Positions 1 to 9,783 of a stretch of 64,000 bases of DNA are shown here, piece by piece. Every line of letters starts with the position of its first letter. The first letter of the stretch is position 1. The notes under the pieces were generated by a model, which made no database searches, had not been told where the DNA came from, and was given only the letters and a program-made list of their open reading frames with translations. A program made the position numbers and the translations under genes. Source of the stretch: [Clostridium] celerecrescens 18A (lineage in GTDB: Bacteria; Bacillota; Clostridia; Lachnospirales; Lachnospiraceae); assembly GCF_002797975.1 (NCBI RefSeq), contig NZ_PGET01000001.1, positions 496,001 to 560,000 on the forward strand. Direction: 5' to 3'.

Positions 1-746
1 ACATCTTTAGTGATCCTCTTGTTTGGAAGAGCTTGGGAAATACCTTATTTATGGCCTTTGTATCTACGCCCATCAACCTGTTCGTAGCGCTGCTTCTGGC
101 CAGCATCGTATGCGCCGATTTTAAGGGGCGGGGGTTTGTCAGGACAGCATTTTTCCTGCCTTCCGTAATCCCCATGGTTGCGGCGACTATGGTATGGATC
201 TGGATGTTTGACCCTACCTACGGTTACATCAATAACGTATTGAGCTGGTTTGGAATCAGCGGACCGGCATGGCTTATGGATGCCCATTATACCAAGTGGG
301 CGCTGGTTCTCATGGGAACGTGGAACACCGGTACCATGATGCTGGTCTGTATGTCAGCTTTGCAGTCCGTGCCTAAAAGTTACTATGAATCAGCCGAGAT
401 CGACGGAGCCGGAAAGGTTTCCAGGTTTTTCTATATCACAGTACCATGCATTGCTCATGTTCTTGTGTATCAGGCCATTCTAAGCACCATAAATGCATTC
501 CAGTATTTCCAGCAGGTATATATCATTATTACTGCAAATGCCGGAGTAAAAGGCGGAAGTGCCGCAGGCGGCCCTGAGAATTCCATTCTCATGTATCCGC
601 TGTATGTATTCCATAATGCATTTACCTATTTAAAGATGGGTAAGGCTTCGGCAATGGCGTGGCTGCTGTTTGTCGTTGTTGCGATTCTGACGGTAATTAT
701 GACAAAGGTAACAAGAAAAGCAACAGAAAATGCCGGAGGTGAATAA
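1..746 (+). CDS. Carbohydrate ABC transporter permease, 5' truncated by window edge
   Basis: Inner-membrane permease of a CUT1-type sugar ABC importer (MalF/UgpA type). The reading frame is open from base 3 to the window edge, so the gene starts upstream; the TTG at base 33 is an internal codon. Several hydrophobic membrane segments are visible. The cytoplasmic EAA loop that docks on the ATPase is near residue 130 ('SAEIDGAGKVSRFF'). The stop at 746 lies 2 bases before the next permease, so the two are co-transcribed and probably form a heterodimer. No ATPase is visible; such operons commonly borrow a shared MsmX-type ATPase. The substrate is inferred from the downstream hydrolases (mannosidase, GH9) to be a beta-linked oligosaccharide or glycoconjugate. 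Confidence 0.93.
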   Translation, partial: IFSDPLVWKSLGNTLFMAFVSTPINLFVALLLASIVCADFKGRGFVRTAFFLPSVIPMVAATMVWIWMFDPTYGYINNVLSWFGISGPAWLMDAHYTKWALVLMGTWNTGTMMLVCMSALQSVPKSYYESAEIDGAGKVSRFFYITVPCIAHVLVYQAILSTINAFQYFQQVYIIITANAGVKGGSAAGGPENSILMYPLYVFHNAFTYLKMGKASAMAWLLFVVVAILTVIMTKVTRKATENAGGE

Positions 747-748
747 GG

Positions 749-1573
749 ATGAAGAAATATATAAGCAAAGTTTTATTTTTTGCTATGGTTGCTGTACTGG
801 CTTTGATTTTCATATCACCCTTTATGGTAATGTTGCTCACTTCGTTCAAAACCAACAACGATGCGTTCACCATTCCGGTAAGGCTGTTTCCCCGTGAATG
901 GGTGAAGGAAAACTATCCGGCAGCCTTTGCAGCAATCCCATATTTTAAGTACATGGGAAATACAGTGTTTATCACGGCCATTTCACTCATAGGCCAGCTT
1001 CTGGTCACACCTATGGTTGCATATTCACTGGTGAAAATCAGATGGAAAGGTGCTGACATCATCTCAGGCCTGGTCATGGCGACGATGATGATACCCATAA
1101 CAGTTACCATGGTGCCTTTGTATAAGATTTATTCGAAGCTGGGACTTACCAATACATACATTCCCCTGATCCTGCCTGCATTTTTTGGAAAGGCATATTA
1201 TATTGTTATTGTCCGGCAGTTTTTTGCAGGCATTCCCAACAGCCTGATTGAGGCGGGGAAGATCGACGGTGCCACAGAATTCCAGCGTTATTATAAAATC
1301 GCACTTCCCCTTTGTAAACCGGTTTTGACTACTATTGGGATATATGCTTTTTTAGATGCGTGGAGTGATTATTTGTATCCTTTGATTTTTATAACAAAGC
1401 CACGTATGTATACCCTTTCTCTGGGGCTCCAGCAGTATATGAGTGAGTATTCCATAGACTGGTCGAGGCTGATGGCGGCGGCAGTTGTATTTGTTCTTCC
1501 GGTCATTGTATGCTTCGCGGTTTTCCAGAAAAACTTTGTGGAAGGAATTGCAACCAGTGGCTTAAAGGCGTAA
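749..1573 (+). CDS. Carbohydrate ABC transporter permease (MalG type)
   Basis: Second transmembrane subunit of the same CUT1 importer, 274 residues, a normal length for MalG/UgpE-like permeases. An N-terminal membrane segment is followed by the typical 'PFMVMLLTSFKTNNDAF' stretch. The EAA motif is near residue 170 ('LIEAGKIDGATEFQRYY') and the C-terminus carries the usual 'FVEGIATSGLKA' ending. A GGAGGTGAA ribosome site lies just upstream of the ATG and overlaps the end of the preceding permease. The beta-mannosidase gene starts 15 bases after the stop, which ties the importer to intracellular glycan breakdown. Confidence 0.95.
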   Translation: MKKYISKVLFFAMVAVLALIFISPFMVMLLTSFKTNNDAFTIPVRLFPREWVKENYPAAFAAIPYFKYMGNTVFITAISLIGQLLVTPMVAYSLVKIRWKGADIISGLVMATMMIPITVTMVPLYKIYSKLGLTNTYIPLILPAFFGKAYYIVIVRQFFAGIPNSLIEAGKIDGATEFQRYYKIALPLCKPVLTTIGIYAFLDAWSDYLYPLIFITKPRMYTLSLGLQQYMSEYSIDWSRLMAAAVVFVLPVIVCFAVFQKNFVEGIATSGLKA

Positions 1574-1588
1574 TAAGCAGGTGAAACT

Positions 1589-4105
1589 ATGCGAAAAACA
1601 CAATCATTAAATGGAATTTGGGAATGGCATTCCCAAGGAGCCTCCCACGATGCCGTATATACGGGTGAAGTGCCGGGAACGGTGATCAGCCATATGCTGG
1701 AACATAAGCTGATCGAGGATCCTTATTGGAGATGCAATGAATATGCTGTCCGGGAACTGATGGCAAATGAATATCTTTATAAGAGAAGCTTTACGGTGAC
1801 AGAAGAGGATCTGGAATTTTCCCGCGCAGAACTAGTCTGCGACGGGCTTGATACCATTGCCACCATCTGCATCAACGGCTGTCTGGTTGCGGAGACCAGG
1901 GATATGCACAGAACCTACCGTTTCCCTGTAAGAGAGTACTTACAGAAAGGGAGAAACCGGATAGAGGTCTTATTTCACTCCCCGCTGGACTTTGTAAGAA
2001 AAGAGGATGAGGAAAATGATATCTTCTATGCCTCCACCGGATGCATTCACGGAAATGCGGCACTTCGCAAGGCTCATTATATGTTTGGATGGGACTGGGG
2101 TCCCCAGCTTCCGGATATGGGAATCTTCCGGGATATAGCCATCGAATATTTCAGCGAAGCAAAAATCCAGGATGTCCATATCCGGCAGGAGCATGAAGGC
2201 AGTGGCAGAGTAGGATTGAAATTTGAGATAAAAATCAGTCAACTATCCCATAATGAAGAGAGACTGGAGAACAGGCAAACATGGTTTACCGAGACTGAAA
2301 TTACAGATCCGGAAGGCAGGCTTGTATCCAGGACAGTCCGTAACAGCGGAGAATGGCAGTATGAAGAGACCATTCCAGAGCCCCGGATATGGTGGCCCAA
2401 CGGTTTGGGAGAGCATCCCTTATACAGGGTGAACATCCGCCTGCTGGATGAGGCGGGAACCTGCCATGATGCCTATGGGTGCCGGATCGGCCTTCGGACC
2501 GTGACCGTTAGTACGGATAAAAATAAAAACGGAAACGAATTTGCCATTACGGTAAACGGAATAAAAATATTTACCATGGGTGCGAATTATATCCCGGAAG
2601 ATAATATTTTAACAAGGGTGTCAAAGGAAAGGACTGCACGGTTAATCAAAGACTGTGCTGCTGCAAACTTCAATTGTTTAAGAGTATGGGGCGGAGGTTA
2701 TTACCCTGATAATTATTTTTATGATAAATGCGATGAAGAAGGAATATTAATCTGGCAGGACCTGATGTTTGGATGCAATGTCTATGCATTAAACGACACG
2801 TTTGAAGAGGACATTGTGGAAGAAACTAAGGACAATGTCCGCCGTTTAAGACACCATGCTTGTCTGGCCCTGTGGTGCGGAAATAATGAAATGGAATGGG
2901 GCTGGGCAGATGAGTGGGCAAGGCTGAAAGGCCATCACCCCAGATATAAAGCGGACTATACAAAAATCTTTGAATATATTCTTCCCAGGGCAATTAGAGC
3001 CTGTGATGACACTACCTTTTTCTGGCCATCGTCACCGTCTTCAGGAGGAGCCTTTGACAATCCCAATGCGACCAACCGGGGGGATCAGCATTACTGGGAG
3101 GTCTGGCATTCCGGAAAGCCATTTACGGAATATGGGGATTTCAGCTTTTGCTCAGAATACGGATTCCAATCCTTTCCACACAGCAAGACCATAGCCTCCT
3201 TCACCCTGCCAGAGGACCGGAATATTTTCAGCAGGGTCATGGAATCCCACCAGAAAAATCCGGCGGCTAATGGGAAGATTTTAAACTACATCGCAGATTA
3301 CTTCCTTTATCCTAAGGATACGGATTCTCTCGCATATATCTCCCAGATCCTTCAGTTAAAGGCTATTGAGTATGGAGTGGAACACTGGAGAAGAAAACGG
3401 GGGCAATGCATGGGCTCTCTTTACTGGCAGCTTAATGACTGCTGGCCGGTGGCCTCCTGGGCGAGCATTGACTATTACGGACGCTGGAAAGCGCTCCACT
3501 ACGGAGCACGCAGGTTTTATGCGCCTTTTACCATTTCCATCGGTGAGGAGAAGGAACTCTCTCCTCATGTTTCCTACTACGTTCATAATGATACCAGGGA
3601 GGAACAGCAGTGCAGAGCGGAAATCCTTCTTATGGACCGTGAGTTCAGGGTATTATGGGAAGAATCATGGGAAGGGGAGCTGCCGGCGTTGTCGGTATTA
3701 CAGTGCATAGAAACGGATTTTTCCTCATGGACTGATGATGAGGCCCTTTGTTCTTCTGCTTTTTCCGTATTCCGGCTATACAGGGGAGTAGAACTGCTTG
3801 CGGAACGGACGGTGCTGTTTGTAAAACCAAAGCATTTTGAATATAATGCCCCGGCTTATGATGTTTTGGTTTCAGAGTCAGAGCATAGCTTTGATATTAC
3901 GGTAAAGGCTTCCTGTTTCTGTCAGTATGTAGAGCTTTATTTTAAAGACTATGATGCTGTTTTCTCTGATAATTTTTTTGATATCACTTCGCCGGAAGGA
4001 GTTACGGTTCACGTAAGCAAAAAAGACTTTAAAGACCAGATGAGCCCAAGCCTGTTGAAAGAAAACCTGGTGGTGCGAAGTGTGGCTGACAGTTATGAAA
4101 GCTGA
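1589..4105 (+). CDS. Beta-mannosidase, glycoside hydrolase family 2
   Basis: Hydrolyses terminal beta-D-mannose residues with retention of configuration. The 838-residue protein has the GH2 order: an N-terminal sugar-binding jelly-roll (about 1-190, with 'FGWDWGP' typical of beta-mannosidases), an immunoglobulin-like domain (about 195-310), a TIM-barrel catalytic domain (about 310-640) and C-terminal beta domains. The predicted acid/base is Glu434 in 'WCGNNEMEW' and the nucleophile is Glu523 in 'CSEYGFQS'. No signal peptide is visible, so it acts in the cytoplasm on imported substrate. It sits 15 bases after the permease gene and 11 bases before the PLP enzyme. A related GH2 exo-beta-mannoside specificity cannot be excluded. 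Confidence 0.93.
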   Translation: MRKTQSLNGIWEWHSQGASHDAVYTGEVPGTVISHMLEHKLIEDPYWRCNEYAVRELMANEYLYKRSFTVTEEDLEFSRAELVCDGLDTIATICINGCLVAETRDMHRTYRFPVREYLQKGRNRIEVLFHSPLDFVRKEDEENDIFYASTGCIHGNAALRKAHYMFGWDWGPQLPDMGIFRDIAIEYFSEAKIQDVHIRQEHEGSGRVGLKFEIKISQLSHNEERLENRQTWFTETEITDPEGRLVSRTVRNSGEWQYEETIPEPRIWWPNGLGEHPLYRVNIRLLDEAGTCHDAYGCRIGLRTVTVSTDKNKNGNEFAITVNGIKIFTMGANYIPEDNILTRVSKERTARLIKDCAAANFNCLRVWGGGYYPDNYFYDKCDEEGILIWQDLMFGCNVYALNDTFEEDIVEETKDNVRRLRHHACLALWCGNNEMEWGWADEWARLKGHHPRYKADYTKIFEYILPRAIRACDDTTFFWPSSPSSGGAFDNPNATNRGDQHYWEVWHSGKPFTEYGDFSFCSEYGFQSFPHSKTIASFTLPEDRNIFSRVMESHQKNPAANGKILNYIADYFLYPKDTDSLAYISQILQLKAIEYGVEHWRRKRGQCMGSLYWQLNDCWPVASWASIDYYGRWKALHYGARRFYAPFTISIGEEKELSPHVSYYVHNDTREEQQCRAEILLMDREFRVLWEESWEGELPALSVLQCIETDFSSWTDDEALCSSAFSVFRLYRGVELLAERTVLFVKPKHFEYNAPAYDVLVSESEHSFDITVKASCFCQYVELYFKDYDAVFSDNFFDITSPEGVTVHVSKKDFKDQMSPSLLKENLVVRSVADSYES

Positions 4106-4116
4106 GAAGGGAGGAC

Positions 4117-5244
4117 ATGAAAATGGGACTTACGCAGGAGCAGATACAACAATTAGAGACACCCTGCCTGGTTATTGATGTAGATTTGGCGGAAAAAAAT
4201 ATAAGAAGGATGCAGGAAGCGGCGGATCAGGCCGGCTGCCGGCTGCGTCCACATATCAAGACCCACAAAATGCCCATATTTGCTGAAATGCAGATGAAGG
4301 CCGGTGCATGCGGGATCACCTGTGCGAAGGTAAGTGAAGCTGAGGTCATGGCTGACGGAGGCATGGGGGATATTTTCATTGCCTATCCTATGGTTGGAAA
4401 TTTCCGTATCCAGAGGGCGATTGCGTTGGCAAAAAGGATCAAAAGGCTTATTTTGACCATTGACAGCCTGGAAGGTGCTAAGGCGCTGAATCAGGCAGCT
4501 TCTGACCAGGATATGATTCTGGAAGTGCGTATGGAGATCGATACGGGAGCCGGACGCACGGGAGTGCCCATGGACCGGGCGGTGGAGCTGGCCCTTGCCC
4601 TTAAGCAGATGAAGCATTTAAACCTCACAGGTATATTTACGTTTAAGAGCCTGGTCCTGTCCGGCAAGCCAACGGAAGACAATTTGCTGGCTGCCGAGGA
4701 AGAAGGAAACATGATGGCTGAGACTGCCAGGATGTTGAAAGACGCAGGAGTAGATATTCAGGACATCAGCGCTGGTTCTTCCCCAACCGGTGTTCAGGTA
4801 GCACAAACAGGAATGGTAAATGAGATCCGCCCTGGTACCTATATTTTTGATGATTTTATGCTGACCAAGGAAAAGGTAGCCCATATCAGTGAGATCGCTG
4901 TCCGGTTCTACGCGACGGTAGTCAGCTGCCAGCATTCGGAATATGCCGTGGTGGACGGAGGAACCAAGTGCTTTCCAACGGACGTAGTTCCGGGGCAGCC
5001 GCCGTTTTACTATCCCGGATATGCCGTGGTGGAAGGAGATGACAATCTCAGGCTATCACGGATGAATGAAGAGCATGGGATCATCACGGCCATTCATGGG
5101 GAGACCGGGCTGCATGTAGGGCAGGTTCTGTCCCTGATCCCTATCCATGTATGTACGGCTGTTAATATGCAGAATTCTGTTTACATTCTTGAAAATGGTT
5201 CTCTCAGAAAACAAAAAGTAGATGCAAGAGGGATGCTGATATGA
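4117..5244 (+). CDS. D-serine dehydratase / D-threonine aldolase-like PLP enzyme (alanine racemase N-terminal fold)
   Basis: Fold-type III PLP enzyme of 375 residues. The 'RPHIKTHK' motif supplies the Schiff-base lysine (probably Lys48). A C-terminal His344-x-Cys346 pair in 'IPIHVCTAVN' matches the zinc site of eukaryotic-type (DSD1) D-serine dehydratases better than that of D-threonine aldolases. The predicted reaction is therefore elimination of ammonia from a D-hydroxy amino acid, or retro-aldol cleavage; exact specificity is not fixed by sequence. The start is the ATG at 4117 behind GGGAGGAC. The gene overlaps the following deacylase by four bases (ATGA), so translation is coupled. A RidA-like gene two positions on would deal with the enamine/imine such an enzyme releases. 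Confidence 0.85.
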   Translation: MKMGLTQEQIQQLETPCLVIDVDLAEKNIRRMQEAADQAGCRLRPHIKTHKMPIFAEMQMKAGACGITCAKVSEAEVMADGGMGDIFIAYPMVGNFRIQRAIALAKRIKRLILTIDSLEGAKALNQAASDQDMILEVRMEIDTGAGRTGVPMDRAVELALALKQMKHLNLTGIFTFKSLVLSGKPTEDNLLAAEEEGNMMAETARMLKDAGVDIQDISAGSSPTGVQVAQTGMVNEIRPGTYIFDDFMLTKEKVAHISEIAVRFYATVVSCQHSEYAVVDGGTKCFPTDVVPGQPPFYYPGYAVVEGDDNLRLSRMNEEHGIITAIHGETGLHVGQVLSLIPIHVCTAVNMQNSVYILENGSLRKQKVDARGMLI

Positions 5245-6851
5245 GTTATATTCTGATCAAAAACGGATTGATTTATGACGGAAGCGGAGAACCGCCGTAT
5301 CAGAGCGACATTCTCATAGAGGGAGAAAAAATTATTGATATCGCCCCGGATATTGAGCATGAAAACGCCCAGGTGATCGATGCTTCCGGCAAGGCGGTAA
5401 CTCCCGGCTTTATTGACATACACCGTCATTGCGATATTGCGCCTTTTACCAACCCTCATTTTGGGGAAATAGAGCTGACCCAGGGAATAACAACTACCTT
5501 TGTGGGAAACTGCGGTCTTGCACCTGTGCCTTCTGTTCCCTCGTGGCGGAAGGAATTATATGATTACCTGGAGCCGGTGATCGGAAGACTTCCTGAGGAT
5601 CTGGCCTTTGAAACCTATGAAGATTACACGAAAGCCCTGGAAGCAGCAGACCTTCCAGTCAATATGGGCTTCTTTGCGGCTTCGGACAGCATCAAGGTGG
5701 CTCTAAAAGGTTTTGGCAGCAAGGCATATACAGAAGAAGAGCTTGAAAAGGCTCAGGAGTATGTGAAAGATGCATTGGCCCAGGGAGCCTTTGGGATTAC
5801 GCTGGGAATCATGTATCAGCCGGAATGCTATTCAAACAGGGAGGAGCTTACGGCGGTTGTACAGGCAGCTGCAGGAAACGGCGGCGTTCTCTGTACCCAT
5901 ATCCGGGGAGAGGGAGACAGCCTGGTGGAGTCGGTGGAAGAAGTGATCGATGTGGCGGCTAAGGCAGGGGTTCCCCTAAATATCAGCCATTTGAAATCAA
6001 CTGGAATCAAGAACTGGAACAGCAAGATATTCGAGGCGATTCAGAGGATTGAACAGGCCAGGGAATCAGGTCAGGATATCACTGCAGATTTTTATCCCTA
6101 TGACGGCGGTTCTACAACCCTCCAGTCCCTGCTTCCGCCAACCATTATGGAAGAGTCCTTTGAGGCTCTGGTAAAAGGCTTATCAGGCCCAGAGGGGAAG
6201 AAGAGGCTGCGCTCAGAGTTAAATAAGGTTCACCAGGGATGGGATAATATGTCGGAAAGCATTGGCTGGGACCGGATCATCATCAGCTCCGTCACCCTTG
6301 AGAAGAATGCATTTATGCAGGGACAGACAATCGGAGCACTGGCGGAAAAGCTGGGATATGAAGAGCCCTCCGATCTGGTGGCAGACTTACTTGTGGAGGA
6401 AAACGGGAAAGTGGGGATTATTGTGTTAAGCATGTCCCAGCAGGATGTGGATGCGGTGGCCCGTCTCCCATTTACCTTGTTAATTTCTGACTCCCTGTAC
6501 GGCGGTGACGGAAAGAACGCCCATCCCCGCCTCCTTGGGACGACTGCCAGATTTTTAAATGATTTTGTTATAAAGCGAAAGGTGCTGTCCATGGAGCAGG
6601 CCATCAGTAAGATGACCTATCAGCCTGCAAAACGGATGGGCCTGGAGGACAGGGGGCTTTTAAGGTCCGGATACCTGGCAGATGTGCTGGTATTTCAGCC
6701 GGAGAGTTTCTTAGATCATGCGGATTACACCGGAAAGCATGACCCGTGTTCGGGCATGGACCTGGTGCTGATGGGAGGAAAACGGGTACTGTCAGACGGC
6801 AATCTCGTGGACCGCACCAGTGGGAAGCTGTTAAGAAAGGGCTTTAAATAA
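5241..6851 (+). CDS. N-acyl-D-amino-acid deacylase (D-aminoacylase family amidohydrolase)
   Basis: Metal-dependent amidohydrolase of 536 residues that removes the acyl group from N-acyl-D-amino acids. Residues equivalent to the D-aminoacylase metal site are visible: His61 and His63 in 'IDIHRHCD', Cys91 in 'VGNCG', His220 in 'CTHIRGEG', His250 in 'NISHLKSTG' and the catalytic Asp417 in 'LLISDSLYGG'. The N-terminal 'LIKNGLIYDGSG' and the C-terminal 'LADVLVFQPESF' form the small beta-sandwich typical of the superfamily. Its start overlaps the stop of the PLP enzyme, suggesting a two-step route: deacylation, then PLP-dependent breakdown of the freed D-amino acid. The exact acyl group and amino acid are unknown. 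Confidence 0.9.
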   Translation: MSYILIKNGLIYDGSGEPPYQSDILIEGEKIIDIAPDIEHENAQVIDASGKAVTPGFIDIHRHCDIAPFTNPHFGEIELTQGITTTFVGNCGLAPVPSVPSWRKELYDYLEPVIGRLPEDLAFETYEDYTKALEAADLPVNMGFFAASDSIKVALKGFGSKAYTEEELEKAQEYVKDALAQGAFGITLGIMYQPECYSNREELTAVVQAAAGNGGVLCTHIRGEGDSLVESVEEVIDVAAKAGVPLNISHLKSTGIKNWNSKIFEAIQRIEQARESGQDITADFYPYDGGSTTLQSLLPPTIMEESFEALVKGLSGPEGKKRLRSELNKVHQGWDNMSESIGWDRIIISSVTLEKNAFMQGQTIGALAEKLGYEEPSDLVADLLVEENGKVGIIVLSMSQQDVDAVARLPFTLLISDSLYGGDGKNAHPRLLGTTARFLNDFVIKRKVLSMEQAISKMTYQPAKRMGLEDRGLLRSGYLADVLVFQPESFLDHADYTGKHDPCSGMDLVLMGGKRVLSDGNLVDRTSGKLLRKGFK

Positions 6852-6924
6852 AAAAGGAACCCCCTTCCAGGCATTTTTATATGCCTTAAGAAGCCGGGCA
6901 GAATAAAGAAAGAAGGAAGCAGAC

Positions 6925-7386
6925 ATGAACATTTATGAAAAACTGAAGGAACTTAATTTGGAGATCCCGGCAGCTCCGCCTAAAGGAGGAGTATATGCCC
7001 CGTGCCAGGAATTTGGAAAAAATCTGGTATACATATCAGGCTGCGGGCCGGTGATCGGAGGAGAAGGGATTAGTGGAAAGCTTGGATATGAATTTACCAC
7101 AGAAGAAGGAAAAGCCTTTTCCAGAGATGCCATGTTAAATGTTCTTGCAGTGTTACAGGATAAAATCGGGGATTTAAACCGGGTAAAACGTGCAATCAAA
7201 ATTCTTACCTTTGTGGCAAGTGCAGATACCTTTTATGAGCAGCCGGCTGTGGCGAATGGAGGAAGTGAATTACTGTTACAGCTTTTAGGCCAGGAGAATG
7301 TACCGGCCCGTTCGGCCATAGGCGTCAACGTTTTGCCTGGAAATATTCCTGTTGAGACGGAAGCTATATTTGAAATTGAAGAATAA
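6925..7386 (+). CDS. RidA family protein (YjgF/YER057c/UK114)
   Basis: A 153-residue RidA-family protein. The family hydrolyses reactive enamine/imine intermediates such as 2-aminoacrylate released by PLP dehydratases. The conserved Arg is at residue 129 in 'PARSAIGVNVLPG' and the closing 'VETEAIFEIEE' strand is typical. The family members nearest in length belong to the YjgF-like subgroup of about 150 residues rather than the 125-residue archetype. It lies 73 bases after the deacylase and 21 bases before the GH9 gene. Context suggests it protects the cell from the product of the DSD1-like enzyme; the biochemical link is inferred. A small imperfect hairpin at about 6869-6886 lies in the gap upstream. 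Confidence 0.9.
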   Translation: MNIYEKLKELNLEIPAAPPKGGVYAPCQEFGKNLVYISGCGPVIGGEGISGKLGYEFTTEEGKAFSRDAMLNVLAVLQDKIGDLNRVKRAIKILTFVASADTFYEQPAVANGGSELLLQLLGQENVPARSAIGVNVLPGNIPVETEAIFEIEE

Positions 7387-7407
7387 TCTTTTGGATGAGG
7401 GATAAAA

Positions 7408-9783
7408 ATGGATCGTCAATTTGAAAAAAATTTAATAGAGTCATTATACGTACATTACCCCTTAAAACCGGAGTACGACAAAAGCATGGAGACCTATAAT
7501 CTGAAAAAGCCGGTTTTGTCTTCCGTGAGTTTATGGGATGGAACCAGCCTGGAGCCATGGAGCTTTGACGGTGAGGGAGAAGTACACGTAAAGGATGGAA
7601 ACATATTGTGCCTGGAGACAAAGTCAAGGGCAGACCACTGGCCGGATAATGAAGTCAGGGCAAACGATGCGGCAGCAGGACTTTATGCCACCTTTGGAAG
7701 CTATATTGCAAAGCTGAATGTGAAGGGGCTGGAACTGGGAAGAGGAAACCGGATATGGTTCAAGATCCGTCCCATTTGCCCCGGCCTTCACAGCCCAATC
7801 GTGCGTGTCGGGTTTGTCAATAATGGGGTAACCAAGATACCGGATGTCTATTCAAGAGAAGGCTTTAATGCCATCAATCTGAAAAATAATGAATGGAATA
7901 CCTGTACCTGGGAGATCGATTCCATTGCCCATGATGCAATCGAGGAAATTTCATTTAACATTCACCGCTATGGCAGGGAAGTGAGCACTGGCGATGACCT
8001 GAGATTTGAACTTTGCGATATCCGGCTTCAGGAGGTAAAACCAGGAGTCGTTCATGGATGGCAGTGTGAGGAAGAGGAAGTAGTATATTCTACAACCGGT
8101 TACTTTGCAGACGGGAGAAAAACAGCAATTGCCAATACCTCAGCCAGAGAGTTTGAAATCGTGAAAGAAGATGACGGCATAGAGGAAGGAGTGGCATACC
8201 GCGGGAAGATTGATAAGGTGGAAAACCACCTGGGAAGCTTTGGGGTATTGAATTTCTCGGACTTAAAAACCGAAGGTACATACAGGATCCGGTTTGGAAA
8301 TACGGTAAGTGAGCGCTTTATCATTGGGAATGACGTTTTGGAAAGTACCTTGTGGAAGCTGACCAATTTCATGTACTGTGAGCGGTGCGGCTATCCGGTT
8401 CCTAATTGCCATGGAACCTGCCATCAGGATGTGATTGCAGAACACAACGGGGTGAAATTGGTGTATGCTGGTGGCTGGCACGACGCGGCAGACGTATCCC
8501 AGCAGACCATGCAGACGGCAGAGATCTTAGATGCCATGATCGCTTCCGCAGGGAAGGTGAAGGATTCTGATCCAATGCTGTTTGGCAGAATGATGGAAGA
8601 AGCTAACTGGGGACTGGATTTTGTGCTTCGTATGCGCTTTGGGGACGGCTACCGTGCATCCCATGCGGCCATACGCAGGTGGACCGACAATTTCATCGGA
8701 AATATGGACGATTGTGAAGCAGATGTTCACAACCGGTCCTTTGAAAACTTTGTTTTTGCTGCGGTAGAAGCCGGTGCCGGAGAAGCCTTTAAGGAACTGG
8801 ACCGGGAGCTGGCATGGAAATGTGTAGATGCAGCGAAAGAAGATTTCCGTTTTGCCGATGAGCGGTTCCGGGAAGTTGGGGTGGAAGGACCTTATCATTT
8901 ACTGGAACATACGGCAGGCTCCAGCCTTTCCCAATACTATGCGGTTGCTGCATGGGCAGCGGCCAGGATATACAAAATTACCGGAGACAGTTATTTTTAT
9001 GATAAGGCTGCTGAGTATGCCGATAAGGTGATATCCTGCCAGGAAACCAGGAATGACCTGCCCATGAGGGGATTCTTCTGCAGGGATGAAAGCAAAACCC
9101 ATATCGTCCATTTCTCTCATCAGGCGAGGGATCAGGTTTTTGCCATGGCTCTGGCAGAGGTATGTGGTGCACTTGCAGAGCATGAAAACAAGACCGTGTG
9201 GGAAGAAGGCTTAAAGCTCCATGGGGAGTATTTAGAAGGTCTTCAGAAATATACGGCTCCCTATGGCATGCTGCCGGCCGGAATCCATCACATCAGCGAG
9301 GCAGAGGACCAGGAAGCCTTCCATGTGGTGCACCCAAAGGTTGATTATGAAAGAGAACGGGTCAATTATGTGGAACAGCTGAAGCAGGGGATTGATCTGG
9401 GAGACGGATACTATATAAGAACCTTCCCGGTGTGGTTTTCTTACCGTGGAAACTCGGCGATCCAGCTGTCCATGGGAAAAGCGGCTTCCATCATAGGAAC
9501 ATATTTCGGCGATAGGGAGTTAATTGAAATTGCCAGAGAGCAGCTTTACTGGACCCTTGGAAAGAACCCCTTCGGCCAGTCTCTGATCTATGGGGAAGGA
9601 AATCATTACGGCCAGGAATATACGGCTCTGCTTGGAGAAACCGTTGGAGAAATGCCGGTAGGCGTACAGACCAGAGGAAATGAAGACCTTCCTTATTGGC
9701 CGCCTGCCAATATTGCAACCTACAGAGAAGTATGGACAACGCCGCCGGGACGTTTTATGTGGGTCGCAGCTGATTTGATTTAG
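7408..9783 (+). CDS. Glycoside hydrolase family 9 protein with Ig-like domain
   Basis: A 791-residue inverting glycosidase. The N-terminal about 210 residues look like a beta-sandwich, followed by a cellulase-N type Ig-like domain (about 215-310, ending 'YRIRFGNTVSERFIIG') and a GH9 (alpha/alpha)6 barrel. The GH9 signature 'GGWHDAAD' holds the catalytic Asp359/Asp362 pair and the predicted general acid is Glu774 in 'YREVWTTPPGRF'. There is no signal peptide, unusual for a cellulase but shared by cytoplasmic GH9 enzymes that act on imported oligosaccharides, such as exo-acting glucosidases or glucosaminidases. It is the last gene of the operon. The exact substrate is not readable from sequence. 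Confidence 0.88.
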   Translation: MDRQFEKNLIESLYVHYPLKPEYDKSMETYNLKKPVLSSVSLWDGTSLEPWSFDGEGEVHVKDGNILCLETKSRADHWPDNEVRANDAAAGLYATFGSYIAKLNVKGLELGRGNRIWFKIRPICPGLHSPIVRVGFVNNGVTKIPDVYSREGFNAINLKNNEWNTCTWEIDSIAHDAIEEISFNIHRYGREVSTGDDLRFELCDIRLQEVKPGVVHGWQCEEEEVVYSTTGYFADGRKTAIANTSAREFEIVKEDDGIEEGVAYRGKIDKVENHLGSFGVLNFSDLKTEGTYRIRFGNTVSERFIIGNDVLESTLWKLTNFMYCERCGYPVPNCHGTCHQDVIAEHNGVKLVYAGGWHDAADVSQQTMQTAEILDAMIASAGKVKDSDPMLFGRMMEEANWGLDFVLRMRFGDGYRASHAAIRRWTDNFIGNMDDCEADVHNRSFENFVFAAVEAGAGEAFKELDRELAWKCVDAAKEDFRFADERFREVGVEGPYHLLEHTAGSSLSQYYAVAAWAAARIYKITGDSYFYDKAAEYADKVISCQETRNDLPMRGFFCRDESKTHIVHFSHQARDQVFAMALAEVCGALAEHENKTVWEEGLKLHGEYLEGLQKYTAPYGMLPAGIHHISEAEDQEAFHVVHPKVDYERERVNYVEQLKQGIDLGDGYYIRTFPVWFSYRGNSAIQLSMGKAASIIGTYFGDRELIEIAREQLYWTLGKNPFGQSLIYGEGNHYGQEYTALLGETVGEMPVGVQTRGNEDLPYWPPANIATYREVWTTPPGRFMWVAADLI

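Follow-up and report, generated by a model that had tools for sequence, protein, structure and literature searches.

A conserved operon of [Clostridium] celerecrescens 18A joining glycosidases to a D-aminoacylase-type deacylase, a DSD1-like enzyme and RidA, and its possible role in the catabolism of oxidised amino-sugar ends

Described systems closest to the operon

N-Acetylglucosaminate (GlcNAc1A) is structurally an N-acetyl-D-amino acid. Its catabolism is described for the ong cluster of Pseudoalteromonas prydzensis ACAM 620, which encodes the D-aminoacylase-type OngB, the deaminase OngC, the RidA protein OngD and a 2-keto-3-deoxygluconate (KDG) kinase (PMC9537276). OngB converts GlcNAc1A to glucosaminate (GlcN1A), from which OngC then produces KDG and ammonia; both activities were shown in vitro, and OngB, OngC and OngD are all genetically required for use of GlcNAc1A (PMC9537276). 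OngD, to which no role has been assigned, is required for growth, and D-Ser and D-Thr are further substrates of OngC (PMC9537276). Here we analyze an operon at the start of a 64,000-nucleotide stretch of the [Clostridium] celerecrescens 18A genome (the window, G000:C1:496001-560000; the genome is 5.27 Mb in a single contig), in which genes for a D-aminoacylase-type deacylase, a DSD1-like pyridoxal phosphate (PLP) enzyme and a RidA-superfamily protein (the trio) stand between two glycoside hydrolase (GH) genes. Below, L-numbers denote the genomic stretches compared and G-numbers denote genomes, G000 being the source genome; coordinates without a prefix are window positions.

An earlier note on this DNA had proposed that the trio deacylates its substrate, eliminates ammonia and detoxifies the enamine, and had known of no described pathway for the substrate that it suggested. 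Since the ong enzymes follow such a route and GlcNAc1A is itself an N-acetyl-D-amino acid, a coherent route of this kind has already been published, for a sugar acid; the same kinds of enzymes catabolize N-acetylglucosaminate in Pseudoalteromonas (PMC9537276), and the route is therefore not undescribed. The window operon shares with the ong cluster a D-aminoacylase-type deacylase, a D-amino-acid-deaminase-type PLP enzyme, RidA and an exo-glycosidase in one cluster, and L131, which holds a window-type relative, further shares an SSS symporter, a KDG-type kinase and the aldolase Eda. The two systems nevertheless differ in transport (a CUT1-type ATP-binding cassette (ABC) importer in the window versus a TonB-dependent receptor/SSS system in ong), in glycosidases (GH2 and GH9, predicted from sequence to be cytosolic, versus a GH20 predicted to be periplasmic), in regulator (YheO-type versus MurR/RpiR) and in RidA (PF14588 type, 153 aa, versus 127 aa). 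The deacylase and deaminase of the window are only ~22-28% identical to the ong proteins and, unlike the ong system, the operon is without a KDG kinase and the genome without a PF03067 lytic polysaccharide monooxygenase (LPMO) match. For comparison, a true ong cluster was recognized in L045, whose deacylase scored 823.5 bits against PpOngB.

A second described system that bears on the operon is degradation of the N-glycan core in the gut, where GH125 is specific for alpha-1,6-mannose and Man-beta-1,4-GlcNAc is a target of three families, GH2 among them (PMC10154615). The clusters studied here resemble it in their GH2 of beta-mannosidase type, in GH125 (L008, L012 and L018) and in GH29 (L080 and L087). 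They differ from it in that no endo-glycosidase was recognized in them, and the passages of the review that treat this system do not contain the trio (PMC10154615). Our literature search found no paper pairing a D-aminoacylase with a beta-mannosidase, none among the listed papers on GlcNAc1A or N-acetylglucosaminate that, judged by title, concerned Clostridia, and nothing nearer than the papers cited here. We tentatively propose, with somewhat less than even confidence, that the operon imports a short oligosaccharide with a 2-amino-2-deoxy-aldonic acid, N-acetylated, at its reducing end (GlcNAc1A, the galacto counterpart or another closely related acid), which would be stripped inside the cell and finished via the KDG route.

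Conservation and layout of the operon

We compared the neighborhoods of the trio within and beyond the genus, taken to be Lacrimispora. The DSD1 gene was present at ≥89% identity in 6 of 25 genus genomes, its own included, with weak matches in two and none in 17, and the entire operon was present in the other five loci (L035-L039). Outside the genus, the set consisting of solute-binding protein, two permeases, GH2, DSD1, deacylase and RidA recurred in Anaerocolumna (L008, L016), Hungatella (L012, L018), a Lachnospiraceae metagenome-assembled genome (L020) and G295 (L079); GH3 followed it in all six loci, and the GH125 genes noted above belong to three of them. GH9 was present and GH2 absent in L009, L014 and L130. 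In L083 and L086, importer, GH2, RidA and GH9 were retained (solute-binding protein 71-74%, permeases 82-85% and GH2 60% identical), with the deacylase upstream beyond a regulator gene; a second type of DSD1 adjoins it in L086, while the L083 contig stops 230 bases past it. In a different family of the order, L139 and L141 carry a diverged importer, GH2 (43-45%), RidA, DSD1 and deacylase, with GH4, GH20 and a BadF-type kinase in addition in L141. A strain-specific join of trio and glycosidases is thus ruled out, and the co-occurrence with the DSD1-like gene across Lachnospiraceae for which the earlier note had advised looking was indeed found.

For the counts we used the 33 loci from other genera in which the deacylase had 8 kb or more of sequence on either side, leaving out L078 (a copy of L014), the five genus loci, L005, L044, L045 and L047 (true ong), and loci with less than 8 kb on one side. 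DSD1 lay within 9 kb of the deacylase in 19 of the 33 and was missing there from 14. A reference glycosidase was found within 9 kb in 16/19 loci with the pair and in 0/14 with the deacylase alone, a contrast inflated to an unknown degree since the reference list was drawn from DSD1 loci. Among the 19, GH2 occurred in 9, GH9 in 8 and RidA in 17 by the gene caller, or 18 counting L087 (the greedy caller missed RidA in L087, L081 and L085, and the deacylase in L007). No glycosidase was found in L011, L082 and L131. For 9 of the 14 DSD1-less loci, 103 proteins (220 aa or longer) were scanned against Pfam; the 25 commonest of 129 families, mainly cell-wall, tRNA, regulator and transporter families, included no glycosidase. 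The functional join of the glycosidases with the trio, conserved widely and surviving rearrangement, holds up.

Several other arrangements were observed. Deacylase relatives of 44-47% identity occur without DSD1 in L126, L128, L129, L133 and L136, and in the four of these that were scanned (all but L136) the neighbors include tRNA-modification, Spore_YtfJ, Na/Ca-exchanger or DUF2953 genes. L143:3448-15520 holds seven tandem deacylase relatives, 35-38% identical to that of the window. A 23.9 kb circle recorded for Subdoligranulum (L040, OY725852.1) has DSD1, deacylase and RidA next to a recombinase but no reference glycosidase.

In the source genome, the gene order is solute-binding protein, two ABC permeases, GH2, DSD1-like enzyme, deacylase, RidA and GH9, with a divergent YheO-type regulator. 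The lipoprotein-like solute-binding protein, found by searching upstream of the window as the earlier note had suggested, lies at G000:C1:494398-495741 (L003:10398-11741) and matches SBP_bac_8 (E 1.6e-27) and SBP_bac_1; the YheO-PAS/HTH_22 regulator precedes it on the minus strand (L003:9507-10145). The seven reading frames that follow are all on the plus strand and lie where the earlier note had placed them. Permease 1 (1..746, PF00528) starts upstream of the window at G000:C1:495802 (L003:11802 onward). It is followed by permease 2 (749..1573, PF00528, E 1.4e-20), the GH2 gene (1589..4105; Glyco_hydro_2_N2, Mannosidase_ig and Ig_mannosidase), the DSD1-like gene (4117..5244; Ala_racemase_N and D-ser_dehydrat), the deacylase gene (5241..6851; Amidohydro_3), the RidA gene (6925..7386; PF14588, 45.5 bits against a cut-off of 35) and the GH9 gene (7408..9783; a CelD_N-like domain). 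Gaps from permease 1 to GH9 are 2, 15, 11, -4, 73 and 21 bases, as expected from the tight operon described earlier, the -4 being the reported ATGA overlap of the DSD1-like and deacylase genes. A terminator scan found no plus-strand site between operon genes, and an internal terminator splitting the operon was rejected on this basis; a short hairpin-like stretch does lie in the 73 bases that precede RidA, but no T run follows it. Promoter-like matches do occur inside genes (for example 3819-3847, 10/12 bases), but at 29 in the stretch they are near the shuffled level (mean 23.7, sd 4.8), so that these matches decide neither for nor against an internal promoter. Hydropathy, assessed simply and not with SignalP, gave no hydrophobic start for GH2, DSD1, deacylase, RidA or GH9, in line with the earlier view that both hydrolases lack a signal peptide.

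Enzymes, neighbors and candidate substrates

The deacylase, 93% identical to that of Lacrimispora celerecrescens, the closest named genome in the collection, is predicted to be an N-acyl-D-amino-acid (N-acetylhexosaminate) deacylase. It is related both to the D-aminoacylase AfDam (1m7j, E 1e-56) and to PpOngB (9kb1, E 2e-45), and retains 12/12 of the catalytic and substrate-anchoring residues checked, namely the metal/catalytic residues H68, H70, C97, H222, H252 and D368 (6/6) and the acetamido/carboxylate anchors Y194, K254, Y285, S291 and R379 together with E226 (6/6; L116 and L370 lay outside the comparison). AfDam and BbDam are inactive on GlcNAc1A, and PpOngB is inactive on N-acetyl-D-amino acids (PMC12017989), so that family membership does not reveal specificity. 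The window enzyme shares with AfDam the catalytic and anchoring residues checked, as well as G at position 290 and T at position 292. Unlike AfDam, it has T for M254 and S for M346, so that two of the three placeable pocket positions are changed in kind; F191 is replaced by M, which stays hydrophobic, and the L298/R295 counterpart cannot be placed with confidence. An AfDam-type assignment was rejected on the replacements at M254 and M346; BbDam (3gip) was compared by score only.

The DSD1-like enzyme is a fold-type III PLP enzyme, and the structures nearest to it belong to a D-threonine aldolase, a D-threo-3-hydroxyaspartate dehydratase and a D-serine dehydratase. Its H-x-C metal motif aligns with that of D-serine dehydratase (3anu) and of D-threo-3-hydroxyaspartate dehydratase (3wqc), where the 7dib aldolase has HxD, and the K/H/C residues are conserved in 43/43 aligned DSD1-type sequences, including the window and three true OngC proteins. 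The combination of PF01168, PF14031 and the H-x-C pair places the enzyme by type with DSD1-type D-serine dehydratases, and on the motif a reading as D-threonine aldolase was rejected. RidA matches PF14588/PF01042 and Arg129, which we take to be the catalytic Arg, is kept in 43/43 aligned sequences, again including the window. Deacylation, elimination of ammonia and assistance by RidA, in that order, would be consistent with these conserved active-site residues. The route outlined in the earlier note thus fits the active sites and the ong precedent, while its substrate is likelier to be a sugar acid.

GH2 has the mannosidase Ig domains expected of a beta-mannosidase and matches the solved beta-mannosidase 2je8/2vjx with E 2.6e-147. 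For the GH9 structure model, the best structural matches were the exo-glucosaminidases VC0615 of V. cholerae and PBPRA0520 (18-19% identity), compared to which the window protein has ~220 additional N-terminal residues; judging from this model, it is probably an exo-acting beta-glucosaminidase/glucosidase. Its sequence profile pointed to no clear specificity, and closer kinship to these two proteins than to endoglucanases is tentative. All five GH9 relatives of at least 52% identity outside the genus (G173, G135, G277, G413 and G057, among 397 family genomes) lie within 9 kb of a deacylase; weaker matches of 42-43% (G384, G070) also have one nearby. Five relatives at 44-48% have no deacylase in the stretch; a ROK/BadF kinase stands in 3/5 of these and a GlmS-like SIS gene in 2/5, hinting at an amino sugar product. 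Judged by family, the glycosidases found over the loci (GH2 of beta-mannosidase type, GH125, GH29, GH20, GH94, GH9 and GH3) would fit an N-glycan core or a chitin-like chain. The importer, with an SBP_bac_1/8 protein and two BPD_transp_1 permeases, has the composition of a CUT1 carbohydrate importer, which would imply a sugar cargo; the best NCBIfam matches of permease 2 are sugar and glycerol-3-phosphate permeases, all below cut-off, and no gene for an ABC ATPase was found in the operon. Relatives of the YheO-PAS/HTH_22 regulator occur in many glycosidase loci, and with KDG genes in L131 and L161.

Links to KDG metabolism were found in three loci (L131, L082 and L090), where a window-type deacylase relative occurs with DSD1, RidA, a KDG-type kinase and Eda. 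In L131, an SSS symporter, YheO regulator, deacylase (45%), kinase and Eda form a tight same-strand row, with DSD1 and RidA divergent; the kinase falls below its family cut-off and Eda above. In L082, a galactonate dehydratase accompanies kinase and Eda, which run divergently to SSS-deacylase-RidA-DSD1, while in L090 a galactonate dehydratase above its cut-off follows the trio. L086, where DSD1 stands beside the importer and glycosidase types of the window, has the same type of DSD1 as L131 and L082. Finding Eda in at least 3 of 20 stretches by chance has p 0.001-0.007, assuming a guessed 1-2% per 19.5 kb stretch; the figure was computed with n=20, and the later locus count is 3/19, two of the three with galactonate dehydratase. 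In Treponema L021, GH94 directly precedes DSD1 and deacylase, and scores 1090.5 bits against chitobiose phosphorylase 1v7v versus 483.5 for diacetylchitobiose phosphorylase 8bou and 477.6 for cellobiose phosphorylase. The source genome encodes, elsewhere, an Eda-family aldolase with an adjoining PfkB-type relative that may serve the same route.

Galactonate dehydratase relatives of 66-68% identity stand by the deacylase in L081 and L082. A galacto-configured substrate is possible, with the modules at L081, L082 and L090 handling galactonate or a galacto-configured amino-sugar acid, and in L082 and L090 both routes may meet in one ketoacid. Two further loci have a related composition. L161:9479-16599 holds in a row an M20 protein, an AbgT transporter, a PALP-family PLP enzyme, a YheO-type regulator, and relatives of KDG kinase and 2-keto-3-deoxy-6-phosphogluconate (KDPG) aldolase, with a RidA of the window type divergent; possibly it represents the same chemistry, with other enzyme families filling the positions. 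Outside the window, L004:4297-10345 (G000:C1:1014297-1020345) holds a solute-binding protein, two permeases, a DSD1-like enzyme (25% identical to that of the window), an M20-family protein and RidA of the same type, preceded by a histidine kinase and response regulator; L163 has a similar arrangement.

Weighing the readings and the proposed route

The oxidised amino-sugar reading draws on the match in kind between the trio and OngB/OngC/OngD, the loci with KDG kinase and Eda, the chitobiose phosphorylase of L021 and the GH9 model. It is further supported by the H-x-C motif in 43/43 sequences, by the 16/19 versus 0/14 contrast (biased list), by GH2 with the trio in L139/L141, by the set retained in L083/L086, and by the Eda and PfkB relatives of the source genome.

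Several findings weigh against it. Although the deacylase shares with OngB the amidohydrolase family, metal ligands, catalytic Asp and checked anchors, the OngB pocket residues A193, A256, S290, S292 and G348, among the specificity residues named in PMC12017989, are M, T, G, T and S in the window enzyme (0/5 kept; the Q298 counterpart cannot be placed, being K by MAFFT and L if ungapped). The enzyme is 536 rather than 489 aa long and 26-28% identical to two true OngB proteins, and a 100/99 branch separates 53 rows including the window from 8 rows with three true OngB; on these residue and tree tests an assignment to OngB was rejected. In the stretches compared, KDG kinase and Eda relatives were absent from the window operon and from every locus whose window-type DSD1 exceeds 55% identity. 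Given galactonate dehydratase in L082 and L090, kinase and aldolase there may serve galactonate, leaving only L131 clean. As OngC also deaminates D-Ser and D-Thr, the DSD1 enzyme does not settle the substrate. The missing PF03067 match in G000 leaves the source of the oxidised end unexplained. Finally, the ong survey found no complete pathway beyond Gammaproteobacteria and a single betaproteobacterium, but with its threshold of >30% identity it would have missed window-type clusters.

Of the alternatives, the one that survives best is a glycoconjugate with ordinary N-acylated D-Ser or D-Thr, which the glycosidases would free, the deacylase would release as the D-amino acid, and DSD1 would convert to pyruvate or 2-oxobutyrate and ammonia, with RidA removing aminoacrylate. 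The solved relatives of DSD1 and the AfDam letters at positions 290 and 292 agree with it, as do Azospirillum and Haladaptatus records in which a related deacylase lies near a gene annotated as alanine racemase, in Azospirillum also with RidA and a peptide-type ABC transporter. It leaves unexplained, however, the row of kinase and Eda with the deacylase in L131 and the chitobiose phosphorylase of L021, and it sits poorly with the small or polar residues now at two of the three placeable AfDam pocket positions. We know of no common gut glycan carrying N-acylated D-Ser/Thr, and on balance consider this explanation unlikely. Improbable, in our judgment, is that the trio is a general N-acyl-D-amino-acid salvage unit inside a glycan operon with which it shares no substrate: despite the 14 loci with deacylase relatives but no DSD1 or reference glycosidase (some by cell-division and tRNA genes), the Subdoligranulum circle (L040, L166) and L011, whose pair lacks glycosidase, kinase and Eda, co-location with GH2 or GH9 is conserved across families and after rearrangement, and extends to 5/5 of the closer GH9 relatives. 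Very improbable is a trio serving oxidised or modified peptidoglycan amino sugars (muramic or GlcNAc ends) rather than dietary glycans, since the MupG-type 6-phospho-N-acetylmuramidase that, with a phosphotransferase EIIBC, stands beside deacylase, DSD1 and RidA in L088:7668-13655 and suggests a muramic-acid variant there occurs only in that one of the 19 loci, and the GH2 of beta-mannosidase type, GH125, GH29 and GH3 of the others are, judged by the roles of these families, unsuited to peptidoglycan.

Under the oxidised amino-sugar reading, the solute-binding protein and two permeases would import the oligosaccharide, powered by an ATPase from elsewhere. GH2 and GH9, predicted to be cytosolic, would trim beta-mannose and beta-glucosamine/glucose from the non-reducing end, and the deacylase, with its active site intact, would take off the acetyl group. 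The DSD1-like enzyme would eliminate the C3 hydroxyl, giving an enamine that, aided by RidA, would become a 2-keto-3-deoxy-aldonate and ammonia, and a KDG kinase and KDPG aldolase encoded elsewhere in the genome could complete the route. The earlier note had envisaged a glycoconjugate carrying both a beta-linked sugar and an acylated D-amino acid. The conserved join of glycosidases and trio supports the link it drew, but a separate D-amino acid is less likely; the oxidised amino-sugar end of the chain is likelier itself to be the N-acyl-D-amino acid. Fungi, other microbes or host oxidants are guesses for the origin of that end in an anaerobic niche. Relative to ong, what would be new here is an anaerobic setting, no LPMO found, and cytosolic exo-glycosidases.

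It is possible, though doubtful, that fermentative gut and soil Clostridia and gut treponemes live partly on glycans with an oxidised reducing-end N-acetylhexosamine (HexNAc), such as Man-beta-1,4-GlcNAc1A (N-glycan cores) or GlcN-GlcNAc1A (chitin), by means of a deacetylase whose GlcNAc1A-type specificity arose separately from that of OngB. If so, this would be a nutrient class so far unrecognized in anaerobic guts, oxidised HexNAc-ended glycans would be predicted to reach the gut, and catabolism of aldonic amino sugars would extend from LPMO-bearing proteobacteria to anaerobic Firmicutes and spirochaetes. It would also give functions to genes of Lachnospiraceae, including Hungatella, whose sole annotation is D-aminoacylase or D-TA family PLP enzyme, and would explain their glycosidase neighbors.

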